From Actinomycetota bacterium (GTDB lineage: Bacteria; Actinomycetota; Acidimicrobiia; Acidimicrobiales; Acidimicrobilacustridaceae): a stretch of 64,000 nucleotides of DNA. The notes beneath the pieces are model-generated. The model saw only the letters and a program-made list of their open reading frames with translations, searched no databases and was not told the DNA's origin. The first letter of the stretch is position 1. The number at the start of each line of letters is the position of its first letter. A program made the position numbers and the translations under genes. Of this stretch, positions 332 through 20,900 are shown piece by piece. The DNA is taken from NCBI GenBank assembly GCA_026393455.1, contig JAPLAE010000101.1, positions 1-64,000 of the forward strand, given 5' to 3'.

Positions 332-1642
332 ATGAGCGATAACTGGGGTTTCGATACCCGTCAGATTCACGCAGGCCAGGAGCCCGACCCCACCACCGGT
401 GCGCGCGCGGTTCCGATCTACCAAACGACCTCGTATCAGTTCCGAGACACGACCCACGCTGCGAACCTGTTCGCTCTGGCCGAGATCGGCAATATCTACA
501 CCCGCATCATGAACCCGACGCAGGGCGTTTTCGAAGCTCGTATCGCATCGCTTGAAGGGGCAACGGCAACCGCAGTTGGTCTTCCAGGCGCACTTGCAGT
601 CGCATCGGGTCAGGCTGCCGAAGCGCTTGCCATTCAGAACCTCGCTGAAGCGGGAAGCCACATCGTTGCCTCAGCAGCGTTGTACGGCGGCACCTACAAC
701 CTTCTTCACTACACACTTCCGAAGTTTGGTATCGACGCAACGTTCGTCGAAGATCCTGACAATCTCGACGAATGGCGCAATGCGATCCGTCCGAACACCA
801 AGGCGTTCTACGGCGAGACTATTGGCAACCCGCGCAATGACGTGCTCGACATCGAGGGCATTTCGAAGGTCGCGCACGAGGCCGGCATTCCGCTCATCGT
901 TGACAACACCGTCGCGTCGCCATGGCTTATTCGTCCGTTTGAGTGGGGCGCAGACATCGTCGTGCATTCGGCGACCAAGTTCATTGGTGGTCATGGCACC
1001 TCAATCGGCGGCCTCGTCGTCGACGGCGGTTCGTTCGATTTCTCGGCGAATGACAAGTTCCCGATGTTTACCGACCCCGACCCGAGTTACCACGGCCTTC
1101 AGTACTGGCCCGCCCTCGGAGCTGGTTCTTACATCATCAAGGCTCGTGTTCAGTTGCTTCGTGATCTTGGCCAGGCCATCACGCCGTTCAACTCGTTCCT
1201 GTTCCTCCAGGGTCTCGAAACGCTCAGCCTTCGCATGGAGCGTCACAACGACAACGCCGCAAAGGTTGCCGCGTATCTCGCCGGACACTCGCAGGTCGAA
1301 GAAGTGCAGCACGCCAGCCTTGCGTCATCGCCGTGGCATGAGCGGGCCAAGAAGTACACCGCCGGCAAGGGCTTCGGCTCCGTGCCCGCATTCATCATCA
1401 AGGGCGGCAAGGAAGCCGGACAGAAGTTTGTCGAAGCGCTTGAGCTGCACAGCCACGTTGCCAACATCGGTGACGTGCGCAGCCTTGCCATTCAGCCGGC
1501 AACCACAACGCATTCACAGCTCTCCGAAGCCGAGCAGATCACCGCTGGTGTGCAGCCGGGTCTCGTGCGCCTTTCGGTTGGCCTCGAGTCAATCGAGGAC
1601 ATCATCGCCGACCTCGACAAGGGCTTCGCCGCTGCGAAGTGA
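332..1642 (+). CDS. metY: O-acetylhomoserine sulfhydrylase (O-acetylhomoserine aminocarboxypropyltransferase)
   Basis: Protein of 436 aa of the Cys/Met-metabolism PLP family. It makes homocysteine (or methionine) from O-acetylhomoserine and sulfide or methanethiol in the cytoplasm. The N-terminus reads [11 protein letters not shown] and then [10 protein letters not shown], typical of MetY. The PLP-phosphate region and the PLP lysine in [11 protein letters not shown] (Lys about 216) are intact, and the length fits the family (about 430). ATG 332 is chosen over the in-frame GTG at 326 because GAGGAG (321-326) lies 5 nt upstream. A strong hairpin terminator follows, so the gene is probably monocistronic. 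Related gamma-synthases are shorter and lack this long MetY-type C-terminus. Confidence 0.93.
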
Positions 1643-1666
1643 GTGTTTGGTTGTCTCAAGTTGTTG

Positions 1667-1703
1667 GAAGAGGCCCGGTCGATGACCGGGCCTCTTCGCG
1701 TTT
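1667..1703 (+). terminator. Strong hairpin terminator after metY
   Basis: A perfect 14-bp stem, GAAGAGGCCCGGTC (1667-1680) with GACCGGGCCTCTTC (1684-1697), has a 3-nt GAT loop and a weak tail GCGTTTC. The stem is very stable but the U-tract is poor, as in many actinobacterial terminators. Confidence 0.8.
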
Positions 1704-1739
1704 CTGACCGGCTACGTTCGGGGGAAACAAGGGGGAGTC

Positions 1740-2510
1740 ATGGAAGCAACATTTGATTTCAGCGGCAAGGTTGTCATCGTCACAGGTTCGACCAAAGGGT
1801 TAGGACGGGCCATGGTCGATGGTTTTGCCGACGCTGGGGCAAAGGTCGTGGTCAGCAGCCGCAAGCAAGATCTTTGTGATCAGGTCGCGGCAGAGTTGAC
1901 CGAACGCACTGGTGCCGAAGTATTTCCGTTGGCATGTCATGTCGGTGAGTGGGATTCGATCCCAGTTTTTGTCGACAAGGTCATGGAACGATTTGGTCGC
2001 ATCGATGTTCTTGTGAATAACGCCGGCATCAATCCCACGAGCGATTCGTTGATCGATACCAACATCGATCTGTGGCGCAAAGTATTTGCCGTAAACCTCG
2101 AGGGGCCATTGCGCATGGCGACATGCGTTGCTCCACATATGCGCGACTCCGGTGGCGGTTCAATCGTGAACATTGCGACGGTTGGCGCCTACAGCGGTGG
2201 TCCGGGTGTTGGTGCTTACGGTGCTTCAAAAGCAGGTCTCATCAATCTTGGGCGCACGCTGTCGAAAGAACTCGCACCGTGGAACATTCGTGTGAACACG
2301 ATTTGTCCTGGTCCGGTGAAAAGCGAACTCACTGAGGGCGCCGAACGAATGACCCCTGGTTTTTACGAGCGTGCTGCATCGGCGACCTCGTTGAAGCGAG
2401 TGGCCGAGACGGCAGAGATCATCGGCCCGGTGATGTACCTCGCCAGCGATCTGTCCTCGTTCGTCACTGGCGACGACATTGTCGTCGCAGGCGGAATGGC
2501 TCGTGGCTGA
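1740..2510 (+). CDS. Short-chain dehydrogenase/reductase (classical SDR, FabG-like)
   Basis: Protein of 256 aa, typical classical SDR length. It has the NAD(P)-binding motif VTGSTKGLG near residues 14-22, the NNAG motif near residue 95, a serine-containing strand and the catalytic YGASK near 165. The C-terminus (YLASDLSSFVTGDDIVVAGG) matches 3-oxoacyl-ACP reductase-like members. GGGGGAG about 2 nt upstream supports ATG 1740. The 3' end overlaps the next SDR, so the two are co-transcribed and probably act on the same acyl or alcohol substrate. The substrate cannot be read from sequence. Confidence 0.85.
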   Translation: MEATFDFSGKVVIVTGSTKGLGRAMVDGFADAGAKVVVSSRKQDLCDQVAAELTERTGAEVFPLACHVGEWDSIPVFVDKVMERFGRIDVLVNNAGINPTSDSLIDTNIDLWRKVFAVNLEGPLRMATCVAPHMRDSGGGSIVNIATVGAYSGGPGVGAYGASKAGLINLGRTLSKELAPWNIRVNTICPGPVKSELTEGAERMTPGFYERAASATSLKRVAETAEIIGPVMYLASDLSSFVTGDDIVVAGGMARG

Positions 2511-3459
2511 GGACATCGTCTTCAGCGGCGAGATTGCTGTCATTACGGGTGCTGGTGGTGGGTTAGGGCGCGCCTACGCGCACATGCTCGGCGAAAGGGG
2601 CTGCCGCATTGTCGTGAATGATGTTGGTCGGCCGCACGGAGACAATGTTCCCGTTGCACGCGCGGTGGTGGATGAGCTTCATGCCAAGGGAATCGAAGCG
2701 GTCGCCGATAATCACAATGCGATTTCCGAAGGTGGCGCCATCATCCAGACTGCTCTCGAAGCATTTGGTGGCGTTGACATCGTGATCAATAACGCGGGTA
2801 TTGGTGCCGGTTCACCCATGGGCCCGAATTCTGCTGAAGAGTGGCGCGAAACAATCGATGCAACGTTGCAGACCTCTATTGCCGTGACGGGCGCCGCCTG
2901 GCCTCACCTGATTGAACGTGGTGGAGGTCGAATTGTGGTTACTGGTTCGCCGGCGATGTTCGGTGCATCGACCACGATTCCCTATTCAGCGACGAAATCT
3001 TCGATGTACGGCTTCACTCGATCTGTTGCTGCTGCAGGTCGTCGACATGGCATTTTCGCCAACAACATCATGCCATCGGCCTACACCCGGCTGACTCGTT
3101 CATTGCCTCCGGGCCCCATGGCGTCGCTCTTCGCCGATCACTATCCGCCAGAAGATGTTGCTTCTTTTGTGGTGTGGCTCTGTCACCAATCGTGTGAGGT
3201 GTCGGGTGAATCGTTTTCCGTAGGCGGAGGTCGAGCCGCGCGCGTTGCGTTGGCCGAGAACCACGGAGTGCTGGTCAACGATCAGGCTCCCGAATCGTGG
3301 GCAGCACAATTCGAAGACCTCATGTCGCTCGATGAGGTTGTCTTTCCGCTTTCGATGAACGACGAAGTCACCTGGCAGGCGCACACACTCGGTAAGTCGG
3401 TGCCTGAGGAACTCGCGCCGGGCGGTCCGCTTGATTGGAATCGCAAACCTCGGCCGTAG
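2503..3459 (+). CDS. SDR family oxidoreductase with C-terminal extension (17beta-HSD4/MFE-2-like)
   Basis: Protein of 318 aa from GTG 2503. AGGCGGA at 2489-2495 is its ribosome binding site, and the start overlaps the upstream SDR by 8 nt, indicating translational coupling. Motifs are VITGAGGGLGRAYA, then NNAG and the catalytic YSATK. The C-terminal 70 residues beyond the SDR core recall peroxisomal multifunctional enzyme type 2 dehydrogenases, which act on 3-hydroxyacyl-CoA. A role in beta-oxidation-like chemistry is plausible but inferred. The gene ends 12 nt from the convergent serC. Confidence 0.82.
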   Translation: MAEDIVFSGEIAVITGAGGGLGRAYAHMLGERGCRIVVNDVGRPHGDNVPVARAVVDELHAKGIEAVADNHNAISEGGAIIQTALEAFGGVDIVINNAGIGAGSPMGPNSAEEWRETIDATLQTSIAVTGAAWPHLIERGGGRIVVTGSPAMFGASTTIPYSATKSSMYGFTRSVAAAGRRHGIFANNIMPSAYTRLTRSLPPGPMASLFADHYPPEDVASFVVWLCHQSCEVSGESFSVGGGRAARVALAENHGVLVNDQAPESWAAQFEDLMSLDEVVFPLSMNDEVTWQAHTLGKSVPEELAPGGPLDWNRKPRP

Positions 3460-7964: not shown

Positions 7965-9521
7965 ATGGCACGGATTCTTGTTACTGAAACCATCGCTGAT
8001 GGCGGCCTCGATCGCCTCCGCGCTGCTGGACACACCGTCGATGTGCAGGAGGGTCTGAGCCCCGAGCAGCTCGTCGAGGCCATCAAGGGAGCCCACGCGC
8101 TCATCATCCGTTCGGCTACCGATGTCACCGCTGAGGTCCTGGCTGCTGGAACCGACCTCATCGTGGTTGGTCGCGCTGGTATTGGTCTCGACAATGTCGA
8201 CACCGCGGCCGCCACCGAACGCGGTGTCATGGTTGTGAACGCGCCTCAGTCCAACATTCTGTCCGCTGCCGAACACACCATGGCGTTGTTGCTGTCGATG
8301 GCACGCAACGTTCCCCAAGCTCATGCCGCTCTCGTTGCTGGCCGCTGGGAACGCAGTCGCTGGACCGGCATTGAACTTTCCGACAAGACACTTGGTGTTG
8401 TCGGCCTTGGTCGTATCGGCAAGTTGGTTGCACAACGGGCAATGGCCTTCGGAATGAAGATCGTGGCCTACGACCCCTTCGTTTCTCCCGAGATGGCTCG
8501 CCAGATTAACATCGAGATCGTCGATCTCGACGCGCTCCTTTCTGTTTCCGATTTCGTCACGCTGCATGTAGCCAAAACTCCCGAAACCGTTGGCCTTATT
8601 AACGCTGAGCGCTTAGCCAAGGCGAAGAAGGGCATTCGCATCGTGAATGTGGCTCGTGGCGGCATCATCGTCGAAAGCGATCTGGCTGACGCGATTCGTT
8701 CTGGTCATGTTGGTGGCGCTGCCATCGACGTGTTCGATAAGGAACCCACCACCGAATCTCCGCTCTTTGAACTCCCCGAGGTTGTTGTCACTCCGCATCT
8801 CGGTGCCAGCACGCACGAAGCGCAGGACAAAGCCGGCGACACCATTGCCGAAATGGTTGGCCTCGCACTTGCCGGTGAATTCGTCCCGTTCGCGGTAAAC
8901 GTCAACGCTGCTGAAGCCAGCGAAACCGTTCGCCCGTTCCTTTCGCTTGCCGAACGACTCGGTGCAACCTTTGGCGGACTCGCCACGGGTGTCGAGGCAC
9001 TCGAGGTTTCCTACGAAGGGGAAATCGGCGGCTACGACACGCGCATCCTCACGTTGTCGTTGCTCAAGGGTTTCTTTGGTCGCATCAGCGATGATCCGGT
9101 GTCGTATGTGAACGCGCCGAAGATGGCCGAAGAACGCGGTATCACCGTTACCGAAACCACCACGACCACGGCGCATAACTTCGTGAACCTCATCACCATT
9201 CGGGGTGGCGCTCACTCGCTTGCTGGCACCCTCATGGGTCTCGATGGTGAAGCTCGCCTCGTGATGGTCGACGATCACCGCGTTGATGTTCCGCCGGCCA
9301 ATCACATGCTCGTGGTTCGTAACGACGACCGCCCCGGCATGATCGGACTCGTCGGCACCATCGTTGGTGAATCGGGTCTCAATATCGCCGATATGGACGT
9401 CGGCCAGGCCCCGAGCGGCGCCTCCGCGATGATGGTGCTGTCCATCACCGATGCGGTTCCGGCTGAGGTATGCGAGCGCCTCCGTGCAGTCGAAGGCATT
9501 GTTTCCGTCGACGCCATCTGA
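7965..9521 (+). CDS. serA: D-3-phosphoglycerate dehydrogenase (long form with ACT domain)
   Basis: Protein of 518 aa. It oxidises 3-phosphoglycerate to 3-phosphohydroxypyruvate, the first step of serine synthesis. It has the Rossmann motif [13 protein letters not shown] near residue 145, [10 protein letters not shown], the catalytic [14 protein letters not shown] near 280, then an intervening substrate-binding (ASB) domain, and a C-terminal ACT domain ([18 protein letters not shown]), probably for serine feedback. The length matches actinobacterial SerA (about 525-530). AAGGA lies upstream of ATG 7965. It works with SerC at 3472. The leuA leader begins 76 nt downstream, and no clear terminator is seen between. 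Confidence 0.95.
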
Positions 9522-9597
9522 GGCCAGCGCTCCCTTTGGGGTAGTGGGGGATTGCCCCATGGTTGCTTTCGCCATAGGAACCCGGCAGACTCTTGCC

Positions 9598-9633
9598 ATG
9601 CGTTCTATTGCTTTGGAGCTTCTACTTCGTTAG
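9598..9633 (+). CDS. Leucine-rich leader peptide of leuA (11 aa)
   Basis: ATG CGT TCT ATT GCT TTG GAG CTT CTA CTT CGT TAG encodes M-R-S-I-A-L-E-L-L-L-R. Four of eleven codons are Leu, three of them nearly adjacent just before the stop, including CTA, a codon that looks uncommon in this window. A -10-like hexamer CAGACT at 9586-9591 puts the predicted +1 exactly on the A of the ATG, so the leader is probably leaderless. It sits directly upstream of two alternative hairpins and leuA. This is the standard layout of ribosome-mediated leucine attenuation. Confidence 0.8.
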   Translation: MRSIALELLLR

Positions 9634-9690
9634 GCGGGTGCCACATATGGCGCCTGCCAACCTCCTGCGCCCTCGGGCCGGGAGGTTTTT
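9633..9690 (+). promoter_or_regulatory. Leucine attenuator: pause hairpin, antiterminator and intrinsic terminator
   Basis: Arm 1 GGCGGGTGCC (9633-9642) pairs over 10 bp, with two G-U pairs, with arm 2 GGCGCCTGCC (9649-9658). The terminator is AACCTCC (9659-9665) with GGAGGTT (9681-9687) plus internal pairs, followed by a run of T (T6 at 9686-9691). Arm 2 can instead pair GGCGC (9649-9653) with GCGCC (9667-9671), which would destroy the terminator. A ribosome stalled on the Leu codons covers arm 1 and favours this antiterminator. Confidence 0.78.
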
Positions 9691-9753
9691 TCGTTCTCCG
9701 GCCAGTTTCTGTTTGTTCCCCGAGCTACACCACATGCCCTGAAAGGCACCTTT

Positions 9754-11334
9754 ATGAGCACCACCGACACCACTGCAACCAACGACAGGGTCATCATTTT
9801 TGACACGACCCTTCGTGACGGCGAACAGTCGCCAGGAATCTCGCTCGATCAGGGCGAGAAGGTTGAGATCGCGGAACAACTCGCTCGTCTTGGTGTCGAT
9901 GTCATCGAGGCCGGGTTCCCGATCGCCAGCCAAGGCGATTTCGAATCGGTGCAGGCCATCGCCAAGTCTGTGCGCGGACCAGTGATTTGTGGGCTGTCTC
10001 GCACCGCACTTGGCGATATCGATCGGTGCTGGGAAGCAATTGAGTCGGCGGAGCATCCTCGTATTCACGTTTTCATTGCCACCAGCGAAACCCATATGAA
10101 GCACAAGCTGCGGATGACTCCCGATCAGGTGAAGGCCGAAGCTGCGGCCGGCGTTGCTCGCGCTCGTTCCTATACCGACGATATTGAATTCTCGCCGGAA
10201 GATGCATCGCGTTCTGATTTCACCTTCATGTGTGAGGTTCTGCAGATCGCAGTCGACAACGGCGCAACAACGCTGAACATTCCCGACACCGTGGGTTTTG
10301 CGGTGCCGCAGGAATACGCCGAACGTTTGGCCAATGTCCGCAACTTCGTTAAGGGCGATTACGTCATCTCTACCCATTGCCATAACGATCTGGGAATGGC
10401 CGTCGCTAACTCGTTGGCAGCAGTGCAACTGGGTGCCCGTCAGGTCGAGTGTGCGGTCAACGGTTTGGGTGAGCGCGCTGGTAATGCTGCGCTCGAAGAA
10501 ATCGTGATGGCGCTGCGTACCCGTTCCGATTACTTCGGAGGCATCGATACCGGCATCAAGTCAGAAGAGTTGGCCCGCACGTCACGTCTGGTCAGCCGCC
10601 TGACCGGTTATCCGGTGCAGTACAACAAGGCGGTTGTTGGTCGTAATGCGTTTGCGCATGAATCTGGCATTCATCAGCACGGCGTGTTGAATGAGCGCAC
10701 CACCTACGAGATCATGGACCCAGCCGCTGTTGGTCAGGGCGAATCGAAGATTGTTCTGGGCAAGCACTCAGGTCGTCACGCGTTCGCCGACACACTGAAG
10801 AAGATGGGTTACGACCTGCACGGCGACGCGCTGAATCAGGTGTTCACTCGCTTCAAGGAATTGGCCGACCGCAAGGTCGAACTGAGCGATGCCGACCTCG
10901 AAGCATTGGTCGCCGAAGAAATGGGCGACACCGTTCGCTATGCCTTCTCGCTTATCTCGCTCGATAGCCATGGTGGTTCGAGTTCCACGCCTACGGCAAC
11001 GATTGTGCTCGATCATGACGGCACCAAGATCGAAGCGACTGCGGAAGGTTCGGGCATGGTCGATGCCGCCTGCGCCGCAATCCATACTGCGACCGGCATC
11101 ACTGGCACTCTCACCGATTACGCCGTCACCTCGGTCACCGGTGGGGTCGATGCATTGGCCGACGTTGCCCTGCGCTTTGAGGTTGATGGTGTTTCGATGC
11201 CAGGCCGTGGCCTGTCCACCGATGTAGTCGAAGCTTCAGCCCGAGCACTACTCAACGCACTGAACCGCATTGTGCGAGTTCGTGACACCGGCGAAGACCC
11301 GAACGCAGTTTCACGGCCGGGCTCGCTCAGTTAG
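9754..11334 (+). CDS. leuA: 2-isopropylmalate synthase
   Basis: Protein of 526 aa. It condenses acetyl-CoA with 2-oxoisovalerate, the committing step of leucine synthesis. The TIM-barrel domain opens with IIFDTTLRDGEQSPGISL, carries the metal-ligand segment STHCHNDLGMA near residue 206 and NGLGERAGNA near 233, followed by HESGIHQHG and the LGKHSGRHAF linker. The C-terminal part is the LeuA allosteric dimer domain for leucine feedback. GAAAGG lies upstream of ATG 9754. It is preceded by its attenuator and ends 1 nt from the convergent leuD stop. The similar protein at 19257 is citramalate synthase, not a second LeuA. Confidence 0.95.
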   Translation: MSTTDTTATNDRVIIFDTTLRDGEQSPGISLDQGEKVEIAEQLARLGVDVIEAGFPIASQGDFESVQAIAKSVRGPVICGLSRTALGDIDRCWEAIESAEHPRIHVFIATSETHMKHKLRMTPDQVKAEAAAGVARARSYTDDIEFSPEDASRSDFTFMCEVLQIAVDNGATTLNIPDTVGFAVPQEYAERLANVRNFVKGDYVISTHCHNDLGMAVANSLAAVQLGARQVECAVNGLGERAGNAALEEIVMALRTRSDYFGGIDTGIKSEELARTSRLVSRLTGYPVQYNKAVVGRNAFAHESGIHQHGVLNERTTYEIMDPAAVGQGESKIVLGKHSGRHAFADTLKKMGYDLHGDALNQVFTRFKELADRKVELSDADLEALVAEEMGDTVRYAFSLISLDSHGGSSSTPTATIVLDHDGTKIEATAEGSGMVDAACAAIHTATGITGTLTDYAVTSVTGGVDALADVALRFEVDGVSMPGRGLSTDVVEASARALLNALNRIVRVRDTGEDPNAVSRPGSLS

Positions 11335-18349: not shown

Positions 18350-19267
18350 ATGCCAATTACACCTACGAACAAGATTTGGATGAACGGAACGCTCGTCAAT
18401 TGGGACGACGCGAAGATCCACGTCCTCACCCACACCCTTCATTACGGAACGGGTGTCTTCGAAGGAATCCGCGCGTATGAAACCCCAAAGGGTCCTGCGG
18501 TGTTCCGGCTTACCGAACACATTGAGCGCTTACACAATTCAGCGAAGATCCTCGGCATGGACATGCCCTATGGCGTCGATGAGTTGGTCCAGGCCACGAA
18601 GGACGTCGTCAAAGCATCGGGACTTCCTTCTGCCTACATCCGTCCGATCGCCTATTACGGCTACGGCGAAATGGGACTGAACACGCTTCCGTGCTCGGTC
18701 GATGTTTCGATTGCTTGCTGGCCATGGGGCGCGTACCTCGGTGAAGATGCGCTCACGAAGGGGATCAGCACAAAGATTTCTTCGTGGACCCGTCACGATC
18801 ACAACACCATGCCGCCGGCTTCGAAAACCACGGGCAACTACGTGAACTCTTCGCTGGCCAAAGTCGAAGCGCTCCGAGGTGGATACGACGAAGCGATCAT
18901 GCTTAACCCGCAGGGTTTCGTCAGCGAATGCACGGGCGAAAATATTTTCGTTGCGCGCGACGGCGTCTTGGTGACGCCGCCGATTGCGGCTGGCGCGCTC
19001 GAAGGAATCACTCAAGACAGCGTGATGACGATTGGTCGAGACCTTGGTTATGAGTTCCGCGTCGATTACCTGACGCGCTCTGACCTCTATGTCGCCGAAG
19101 AGATCTTTCTGTGTGGAACCGCTGCTGAGGTTTCGGCTGTGAATTCAGTCGATAATCGCGATATCCCGTGCCCCGGTCCGATGACGTCTGTCATCGCTGC
19201 TGAATATGGACGCGTTGTGCGCGGTCAGGTTCCCCGTTACGAGGACTGGTTGGAGTATGTCCACTAA
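18350..19267 (+). CDS. ilvE: Branched-chain amino-acid aminotransferase
   Basis: Protein of 305 aa, fold-type IV PLP aminotransferase performing the last step to Leu, Ile and Val. The start MPITPTNKIWMNGTLVNWDD and THTLHYGTGVFEGIRAY are typical of IlvE group I. The PLP lysine lies in ASKTTGNYVNS near residue 160, with SECTGENIFVARDG after it. GAGAGG (18337-18342) lies 7 nt before ATG 18350; an in-phase extension back into leuB is not family sequence. Its stop overlaps the cimA start by 11 nt. Confidence 0.93.
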   Translation: MPITPTNKIWMNGTLVNWDDAKIHVLTHTLHYGTGVFEGIRAYETPKGPAVFRLTEHIERLHNSAKILGMDMPYGVDELVQATKDVVKASGLPSAYIRPIAYYGYGEMGLNTLPCSVDVSIACWPWGAYLGEDALTKGISTKISSWTRHDHNTMPPASKTTGNYVNSSLAKVEALRGGYDEAIMLNPQGFVSECTGENIFVARDGVLVTPPIAAGALEGITQDSVMTIGRDLGYEFRVDYLTRSDLYVAEEIFLCGTAAEVSAVNSVDNRDIPCPGPMTSVIAAEYGRVVRGQVPRYEDWLEYVH

Positions 19268-20900
19268 CAACGGCGCCAAAACTGAGCTCTCATCGCTTCC
19301 ATCCTCGGTCGAGATTTTCGATACGACTTTGCGCGATGGCGCCCAGTTCGAAGGCATCTCACTCACCGTTGAAGACAAGCTTCGCGTTGCCGAGCAGCTC
19401 GATTGGCTTGGCGTTCGCTGGATCGAAGGGGGCTACCCCCAGGCCAATCCGAAAGACGAGGAGTTCTTCCAGCGCGCCCCGCTTGAACTCAAGCTCACAA
19501 ATGCCGAACTCGTGGCATTCGGTTCCACACGCAGGCCCGCAGGGAAGGTCGATGTTGACCCAACCTTGGCGGCTCTCGTTGGTGCCGGAACTTCGACAGT
19601 TTGCATCGTGGGTAAGAGTTGGGATTTCCATGTCACCGAGGCCTTACGAACGACGCTCGATGAAGGCATTGCGATGGTTGCCGAATCGGTTGCTTTTTTA
19701 AAGGCCGAAGGATTGCGCGTCTTTTTTGATGCTGAACATTTCTTCGATGGTTACAAAGCCAATCCTGAATTCGCGCTTCGAGTTCTCGAGGCAGCCATGG
19801 TCAACGGCGCCGATTGTGTGGTGTTATGCGATACCAACGGGGGGTCACTCCCGCACGAGGTTCAGCGCGTCACCGCCGAAGTCGTTTCTTTTGTTGGCGG
19901 CGCAACGGGCGTGGGCATTCACACTCAAAATGATTCTGGCTGCGCTGTAGCAAATTCTGTAGCGGCGGTTGTTGGTGGAGCTACACAGGTGCAGGGCACC
20001 ATCAACGGCTACGGCGAGCGCACGGGTAATGCAAACCTCATGACCGTCATTCCCGACCTCACGCTCAAACTCGGAGTGGCGACACTGCCTGAGGGGCACC
20101 TCGATCGACTCACCGTTGTGAGTCACCGCGTTGCGGAACTCGTCAACCTCCCGCCGCATCCCTCTGACCCATATGTTGGACAGTCTGCCTTTGCGCACAA
20201 GGGTGGCTTGCATACTTCGGCGCTAGGCCGCGCGGGCGGAGCGACCTACGAACACATCGATCCGGCAATTGTGGGCAACCACACTCGGGTACTCGTATCT
20301 GACCTCGGCGGGCGCGCTGGCATGGCCATGAAAGCCGACGAATTTGGCGTCGAACTTGACGATAAGTCCGTTGCCAAGCTGTCTGACGACCTGAAGCAAC
20401 TCGAGTCGGAAGGCTGGTTGTTTGAATCGGCCGACGCGTCTCTTGAACTTCGTATGCGCCGAGCCGCTGGTTGGGAACAAGCATTTTTCGAGGTTGAGGA
20501 ATATCGAGTTTCGAGTTCACACCGCGAAGGTGCTGCCACAACTGGCGGTGCCCTCGAGGTCACGACCGAAGCAACGGTCATACTCTGGATTGACGGCGAA
20601 CGAGTCACCGCCGATGGTGAGGGGAATGGCCCCGTCAATGCACTCGATGCCGCAGTTCGTCGAGCGCTCAACGGACGGTTCCCTGCGCTTGAACGAATTC
20701 ATCTGACCGATTTCAAGGTTCGCGTCGTCGATGGTGGCGCTGCGACCGGAGCGGTGGTGCGCGTGCTCATCGATTCCACCAACGGCGACCGCGTCTGGAC
20801 GACCGTAGGAGTCGATAGCAACGTGATTGAGGCCTCATGGCAGGCGCTCATGGACTCCATTCAGTTTGGTTTGGTCCACGCTGACGATCTTGCCGGGTAG
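19257..20900 (+). CDS. cimA: (R)-citramalate synthase
   Basis: Protein of 547 aa. It condenses acetyl-CoA and pyruvate to citramalate, opening the threonine-independent isoleucine route. VEIFDTTLRDGAQFEGISL, the ERTGNANL motif and CVVLCDTNGGSLPHEV mark the CimA branch; LeuA has DGEQSPG and a different HxH context. The C-terminal allosteric domain is present, with an AATTGGALE-type segment. The start ATG 19257 overlaps ilvE, so expression is coupled. With LeuCD and LeuB it yields 2-oxobutyrate for isoleucine. Homocitrate synthase is a distant alternative, rejected on motif and context. Confidence 0.92.
   Translation: MSTNNGAKTELSSLPSSVEIFDTTLRDGAQFEGISLTVEDKLRVAEQLDWLGVRWIEGGYPQANPKDEEFFQRAPLELKLTNAELVAFGSTRRPAGKVDVDPTLAALVGAGTSTVCIVGKSWDFHVTEALRTTLDEGIAMVAESVAFLKAEGLRVFFDAEHFFDGYKANPEFALRVLEAAMVNGADCVVLCDTNGGSLPHEVQRVTAEVVSFVGGATGVGIHTQNDSGCAVANSVAAVVGGATQVQGTINGYGERTGNANLMTVIPDLTLKLGVATLPEGHLDRLTVVSHRVAELVNLPPHPSDPYVGQSAFAHKGGLHTSALGRAGGATYEHIDPAIVGNHTRVLVSDLGGRAGMAMKADEFGVELDDKSVAKLSDDLKQLESEGWLFESADASLELRMRRAAGWEQAFFEVEEYRVSSSHREGAATTGGALEVTTEATVILWIDGERVTADGEGNGPVNALDAAVRRALNGRFPALERIHLTDFKVRVVDGGAATGAVVRVLIDSTNGDRVWTTVGVDSNVIEASWQALMDSIQFGLVHADDLAG

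Follow-up and report, generated by a model that had tools for sequence, protein, structure and literature searches.

An acidimicrobial leuA leader with a leucine-codon ORF, two covarying hairpins and no conserved antiterminator: a probable ribosome-mediated attenuator

Results and discussion

The leuA gene of the acidimicrobial genome studied here is preceded by a leader that very probably acts as a leucine-responsive, ribosome-mediated transcription attenuator of the actinobacterial leaderless type. A short open reading frame ending in leucine codons is followed by a hairpin at its stop codon (H1) and, directly behind it, by an intrinsic terminator. A leucine attenuator of leuA with a translated leader and an intrinsic terminator had been proposed in an earlier note on this DNA, and this proposal is supported by 62 of 63 relatives and by the covariation of both helices. 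An antiterminator that shares bases with the terminator is not conserved. The arrangement most likely restricts the production of leucine enzymes to leucine scarcity.

Anatomy of the leuA leader

The window, a stretch of 64,000 nucleotides, corresponds to contig C80 in a 2.28-Mb genome that is incomplete. Between serA (7965-9521; TIGR01327) and leuA (9754-11334, forward strand), the sequence carries, in this order, a -35-like hexamer, a -10-like hexamer, the leader ORF, H1, and the terminator, all on the forward strand. The leuA product was assigned to 2-isopropylmalate synthase of LeuA type I (NCBIfam TIGR00973, 683 bits, above the cutoff). On direct reading, all coordinates in the earlier note were correct, and the leader peptide MRSIALELLLR is encoded as claimed there (9598-9633; ATG at 9598, stop codon TAG at 9631-9633). 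Its regulatory codons CTT CTA CTT (9619-9627) are followed by one spacer codon, CGT, and the stop. H1 (9633-9658) starts at the stop codon and pairs 9633-9642 with 9649-9658 over 10 bp, two of them G-U. Flush with H1 lies the terminator, AACCTCCTGCGCC-CTCG-GGCCGGGAGGTTTTTT (9659-9691), with the stem at 9659-9687 and six Ts at 9686-9691. The leuA start is 62 bp past the terminator and is preceded by a Shine-Dalgarno-like GAAAGG (9741-9746, forward strand).

The 168-nt fold had a z score of -3.98, and none of 200 shuffled sequences was equally stable. When both strands of the window were scanned for a stop codon followed by a hairpin and a terminator, the leuA unit was a clear outlier, and no further copies of the device were found. 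A second hairpin, TGGGGTAGTGGGGGATTGCCCCA, is located 3' of serA at 9537-9559; it has a weak T tail and may be the serA terminator. The closest named relatives by LeuA are Acidimicrobiia assemblies (L157 LeuA, 90%). The leuA of L156 (CAMAYJ010000111.1) is 98% identical at the protein level, and its title, 'Bifidobacterium breve', is probably wrong.

Promoter and leaderless start

The -10-like CAGACT (9586-9591) lies 6 nt ahead of the leader ATG, and the -35-like TTGCTT (9563-9568), which the earlier note had overlooked, 17 nt ahead of the -10 hexamer. Both are conserved across the genus, as TTGC(T/A) and CAGACT-N6-ATG, and the order has TTGAC at the -35 position. From the distance of CAGACT to the ATG, the transcript start is predicted at 9598. 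We scanned the order for TTGAC-N17/18-xAxxxT ending 5-11 nt ahead of an in-frame start codon. The pattern was found in 41 of 62 sequences, compared to a mean of 0.09 and a maximum of 1 in dinucleotide shuffles; the promoter in the window itself resembles this pattern only weakly. The observed distances between -10 and start codon were 6-11 nt with a mode of 9, and a Shine-Dalgarno-like motif ahead of the nearest start occurred in only 4 of the 62 sequences. These comparative data support the view that transcription would begin at the start codon or up to about 4 nt upstream of it. The conserved promoter-start spacing thus strongly supports the start proposed in the earlier note, with a leader predicted to be leaderless or nearly so.

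Conservation and covariation in the order

To compare the leader among relatives, we used 63 upstream regions of LeuA orthologues, picked solely by LeuA homology after a LeuA protein search of 148 genomes of the order. The same device precedes 62 of the 63 type I genes. In these sequences, the leader is a short ORF that ends in Leu codons, usually one more codon, and the stop; H1 starts between -4 and +3 nt from the stop codon and is immediately succeeded by a terminator of the form CCUCCUGNGCC-loop-GGCCAGGAGG-U(n) or by one very similar to it. The earlier note would have been refuted by a lack of conservation of the peptide and the stems; the peptide, H1, and the terminator are conserved. The single type I gene without the device is L045 (G048:C3), where the leuA start is close behind another ORF.

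Both the 10-bp hairpin and the T-tailed terminator described earlier carry compensatory changes. In the order alignment, these were found in 10 of 10 pairs of H1, while the terminator had 97.7% of its cells paired and changes on both sides in 5 of 10 pairs. Over the whole structure, 95.8% of cells were paired and 57 were doubly changed; the corresponding values for shuffles were 89.3% and 12.6. De novo prediction with RNAalifold returned only two helices, namely H1 and the terminator. In a set of 140 sequences, all of the twelve column pairs with the strongest covariation fell within these two helices, and the first pair outside them was just 52% complementary. A comparison of native with swapped arms, which covered twenty-one segment pairings, gave z scores of -13.7 for H1 and -11.3 for the terminator. 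A pairing of the upstream leader with arm 2 reached p 0.01, which is unconvincing among 21 tests, so that only H1 and the terminator stand out.

The terminator has a bulged, variable base (C/U/A) within CCUCCUG-N-GCC, at column 60 of alignment A1 (window position 9668). Most members of the order retain the bulge despite its weakening effect on the hairpin. We also considered frameshifting or readthrough across the terminator and rejected it: none of the three frames was open more often than the others (50-53 of 62), which is what GC-rich DNA would be expected to show.

Distribution and target genes

A covariance model (R1) built from the leuA upstream sequences of the order had matches in 203 of the 395 class genomes searched. 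In a sample of 297 genomes from across the phylum it matched 33, about 20 of which belong to the same class. No match was obtained in nine genomes of other groups, all of which carry a LeuA relative. A second model, from which the window's family had been left out, matched the window at 9619-9691 with an E value of 6.7e-14, the next-best match in the window having an E value of 0.43. Rfam leader families, e.g. Leu_leader, gave no match at the gathering score or at E values up to 10.

The downstream genes of 117 matches were examined. LeuA1 and LeuA2 genes followed 53 matches each, IlvB four, and LeuS four; the remaining three could not be matched to a reference, and at least one of these lay at a contig end. 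LeuA type II (TIGR00970) is only about 27% identical to LeuA type I. Among the low-ranked matches that were read further, more leuS and ilvB genes and one cimA gene were found. The leaders differ accordingly in their codons. Those of the class homologues listed all end in LLLx*, those of ilvB in LVLIx*, IVLR* or similar, and the citramalate synthase gene (TIGR00977) of L125 (G179:C18; ORF 1638-3239, reverse strand) is preceded by an isoleucine-run leader, SIAIIIIS*. The geometry of run, one codon, stop, hairpin, and terminator remained constant and nearly gapless while the codon identity varied. Thus, the device follows function across two LeuA types, leuS, ilvB, and cimA, and its codon run tracks the product of the downstream gene, which is the strongest evidence in support of a product-sensing leader. 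Because R1 includes the Leu run, this census is biased towards Leu leaders.

Leu-rich devices before leuS were also seen in several lineages outside the window's class (L126, L127, L131, L134, L135, and L139). A weak match in L133 (G509:C78), restricted to model positions 17-75, lies before a serine aminotransferase-serA operon and has a leader ending in RRSNK*; it may or may not be an attenuator. The window's own cimA (19257-20900, TIGR00977) has no leader device, and it begins near the end of the preceding gene or overlaps with it.

Absence of a conserved antiterminator

The leu and trp attenuators of E. coli have product codons and rare Leu codons in the leader and a terminator before the operon, as is the case here. 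They also have a Shine-Dalgarno-led leader and a four-segment pairing switch, which is not conserved here. Such a switch had been proposed in the earlier note, with H1 as the 1:2 protector, a 2:3 antiterminator (GGCGC at 9649-9653 with GCGCC at 9667-9671), and the 3:4 terminator. The two 5-nt segments are indeed complementary, and the 2:3 helix was seen in the nascent fold with arm 1 covered. Across relatives, however, it was paired at chance level (77.2% compared to 77.5% in shuffles), with covariation likewise at the shuffle level and no sign of co-evolution. Native 2:3 segments had no advantage over swapped ones (p 0.17), and 2:3 pairs were absent from the top covarying pairs of the 140 sequences. 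The helix would, moreover, leave CCTCC unpaired. H1 does not qualify as a classical protector either, because the Leu codons lie upstream of H1 and outside segment 1; by geometry and constrained folds, H1 stays largely folded when a ribosome stalls on them and is opened by a ribosome at the stop codon. We therefore regard the four-segment switch as very improbable.

A different form of competition has been proposed for ilvBNC of Corynebacterium glutamicum, in which the antiterminator and the terminator share a GCC trinucleotide (PMC11857589). The order of elements is identical to that of the leuA device, i.e., control codons, stop, hairpin, and abutting terminator, and H1 might accordingly compete with the terminator for bases at their boundary. 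Even when both hairpins were maximally extended, though, they had no base in common in 53 of 62 sequences and only 1-2 nt in the rest, and 77 further members agreed. Since nearly all sequences lack common bases, the device does not correspond to the textbook pairing switch, and competition at the boundary is unlikely.

Taken as a whole, the order sequences, the covariation in 140 sequences, and the swap tests revealed no conserved alternative pairing. The leader has the product-codon-rich ORF (LLLx*) and the intrinsic terminator before the gene that characterize classical attenuators, while a conserved antiterminator sharing terminator bases was found neither in the 62 + 77 members nor in the 140-sequence covariation. 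For this reason we do not assign the device to the classical pairing-switch class; it would nevertheless work like a ribosome-mediated attenuator.

Proposed mechanism

RNA polymerase would begin on the leader ATG or a few bases away from it. A ribosome would load on the leaderless end and translate the 11 codons. With ample Leu-tRNA, the ribosome would pass CTT-CTA-CTT, reach the stop codon, and open or leave H1, whereupon the terminator would form and transcription would end before leuA. With scarce Leu-tRNA, the ribosome would stall on the Leu codons with the folded H1 directly against its front; the terminator would then not be completed, and leuA would be transcribed. The leading edge of a ribosome is about 12-15 nt past the first P-site base. 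Given this footprint, a ribosome on the Leu codons would come to rest at H1 or immediately ahead of it; a ribosome on the stop codon would cover most of arm 1. In constrained folds, H1 survived a stall at the Leu codons in most sequences and was lost with the ribosome at the stop codon. The terminator remained the best fold for almost every state and sequence examined, and in nearly all modelled ribosome states the two hairpins were thermodynamically compatible. Folding alone thus yields no switch, and readthrough at low leucine demands that the folded H1 with its abutting ribosome opposes termination.

How this is achieved can be proposed only tentatively. The explanation we favour, although we would not call it probable, is steric exclusion: once H1 has formed, the RNA left free between the ribosome and the polymerase would be too short to accommodate the two hairpins together. 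From the P-site to the transcript end, the free RNA amounted to 24-30 nt with a stalled ribosome and both hairpins folded, and to 43 nt with the ribosome at the stop codon and H1 open (sd 1.6-2.5). Ribosome and polymerase together occupy about 24-30 nt at minimum, and the steric step rests on such general footprints. The chief competing explanations are pausing or kinetic control. H1 might chiefly pause RNA polymerase or slow the ribosome to keep the two in step, with the terminator set by kinetics alone. Pause hairpins belong to known attenuators, and H1 sits at the mRNA entry when the last Leu codon occupies the A site; by itself, however, this explanation is silent on how stalling lowers termination and leaves the flush H1-terminator spacing unexplained. 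We consider it a little less likely than steric exclusion. The broader notion of a class-wide attenuator without antiterminator pairing, in which the stalled ribosome and H1 use the RNA slack and which serves several genes as an exchangeable module (Leu, Ile, or mixed branched-chain amino acids), is possible but speculative. The missing antiterminator pairing and the rigid ribosome-hairpin-terminator spacing make the leader a clean test of attenuation by steric exclusion.

Comparison with known systems

Leaderless leaders with branched-chain amino acid codons and terminators are already known in Actinobacteria, namely from Streptomyces lividans leuS (PMC8079986) and C. glutamicum ilvBNC (PMC11857589). 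The leuA device resembles the latter in its probably leaderless leader, the hairpin right behind the control codons, and the abutting terminator; it differs in the target gene and in the shared GCC, as an overlap of the C. glutamicum type was not observed (none in 53 of 62, 2 nt at most). M. tuberculosis ilvB1 likewise has an upstream ORF with branched-chain amino acid codons at which stalling favours readthrough, and a ribosome at the stop codon masks the downstream hairpin so that the terminator forms; its leader sequence is 166 nt long, mutually exclusive folds are proposed, and the target is ilvB (PMC13236596). The logic suggested here for leuA is that of both systems (PMC13236596; PMC11857589), minus the shared bases. 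The S. lividans leuS and leuA leaders are Leu-rich too, and leaderless, as is predicted for the leader described here. In leuS, a hairpin and a U stretch lie behind the leader, whereas the leuA leader is without a typical terminator and has its Leu run four or more codons ahead of the stop (LLLSEPR*; PMC8079986).

The actinobacterial LEU element also has a leader peptide with a Leu run ahead of leuA, but a pseudoknot of the Leu run and the Shine-Dalgarno sequence was proposed and no terminator was reported (Seliverstov 2005, PMC1262725), while the terminator is conserved here. Translational control of this kind is conceivable insofar as the Leu run is complementary to AGGAGG in the 3' arm of the terminator (mean -8 kcal/mol). 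Yet this AGGAGG belongs to the terminator, leuA has its separate GAAAGG at 9741, the Leu run and the 3' arm show no co-evolution, and GGGGG variants are common. In addition, the 75-nt core contains no covarying helix besides H1 and the terminator that would correspond to a pseudoknot. Control by Shine-Dalgarno pairing is thus the least likely explanation considered here, with hardly any weight. Described actinobacterial leuA leaders are reported without a typical terminator (PMC1262725, PMC8079986); the device presented here is a complete, terminator-bearing, class-wide leuA version in a related lineage. We found no report for Acidimicrobiia in the papers searched.

The leaders finally show a marked codon preference. 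CTT was the last Leu codon in 53 of 62 leaders (p about 5e-74) and accounts for 2.7% of the Leu codons in the leuA genes of the relatives. This bias could serve mRNA structure instead of tRNA supply; it resembles the use of rare codons typical of known leucine leaders.
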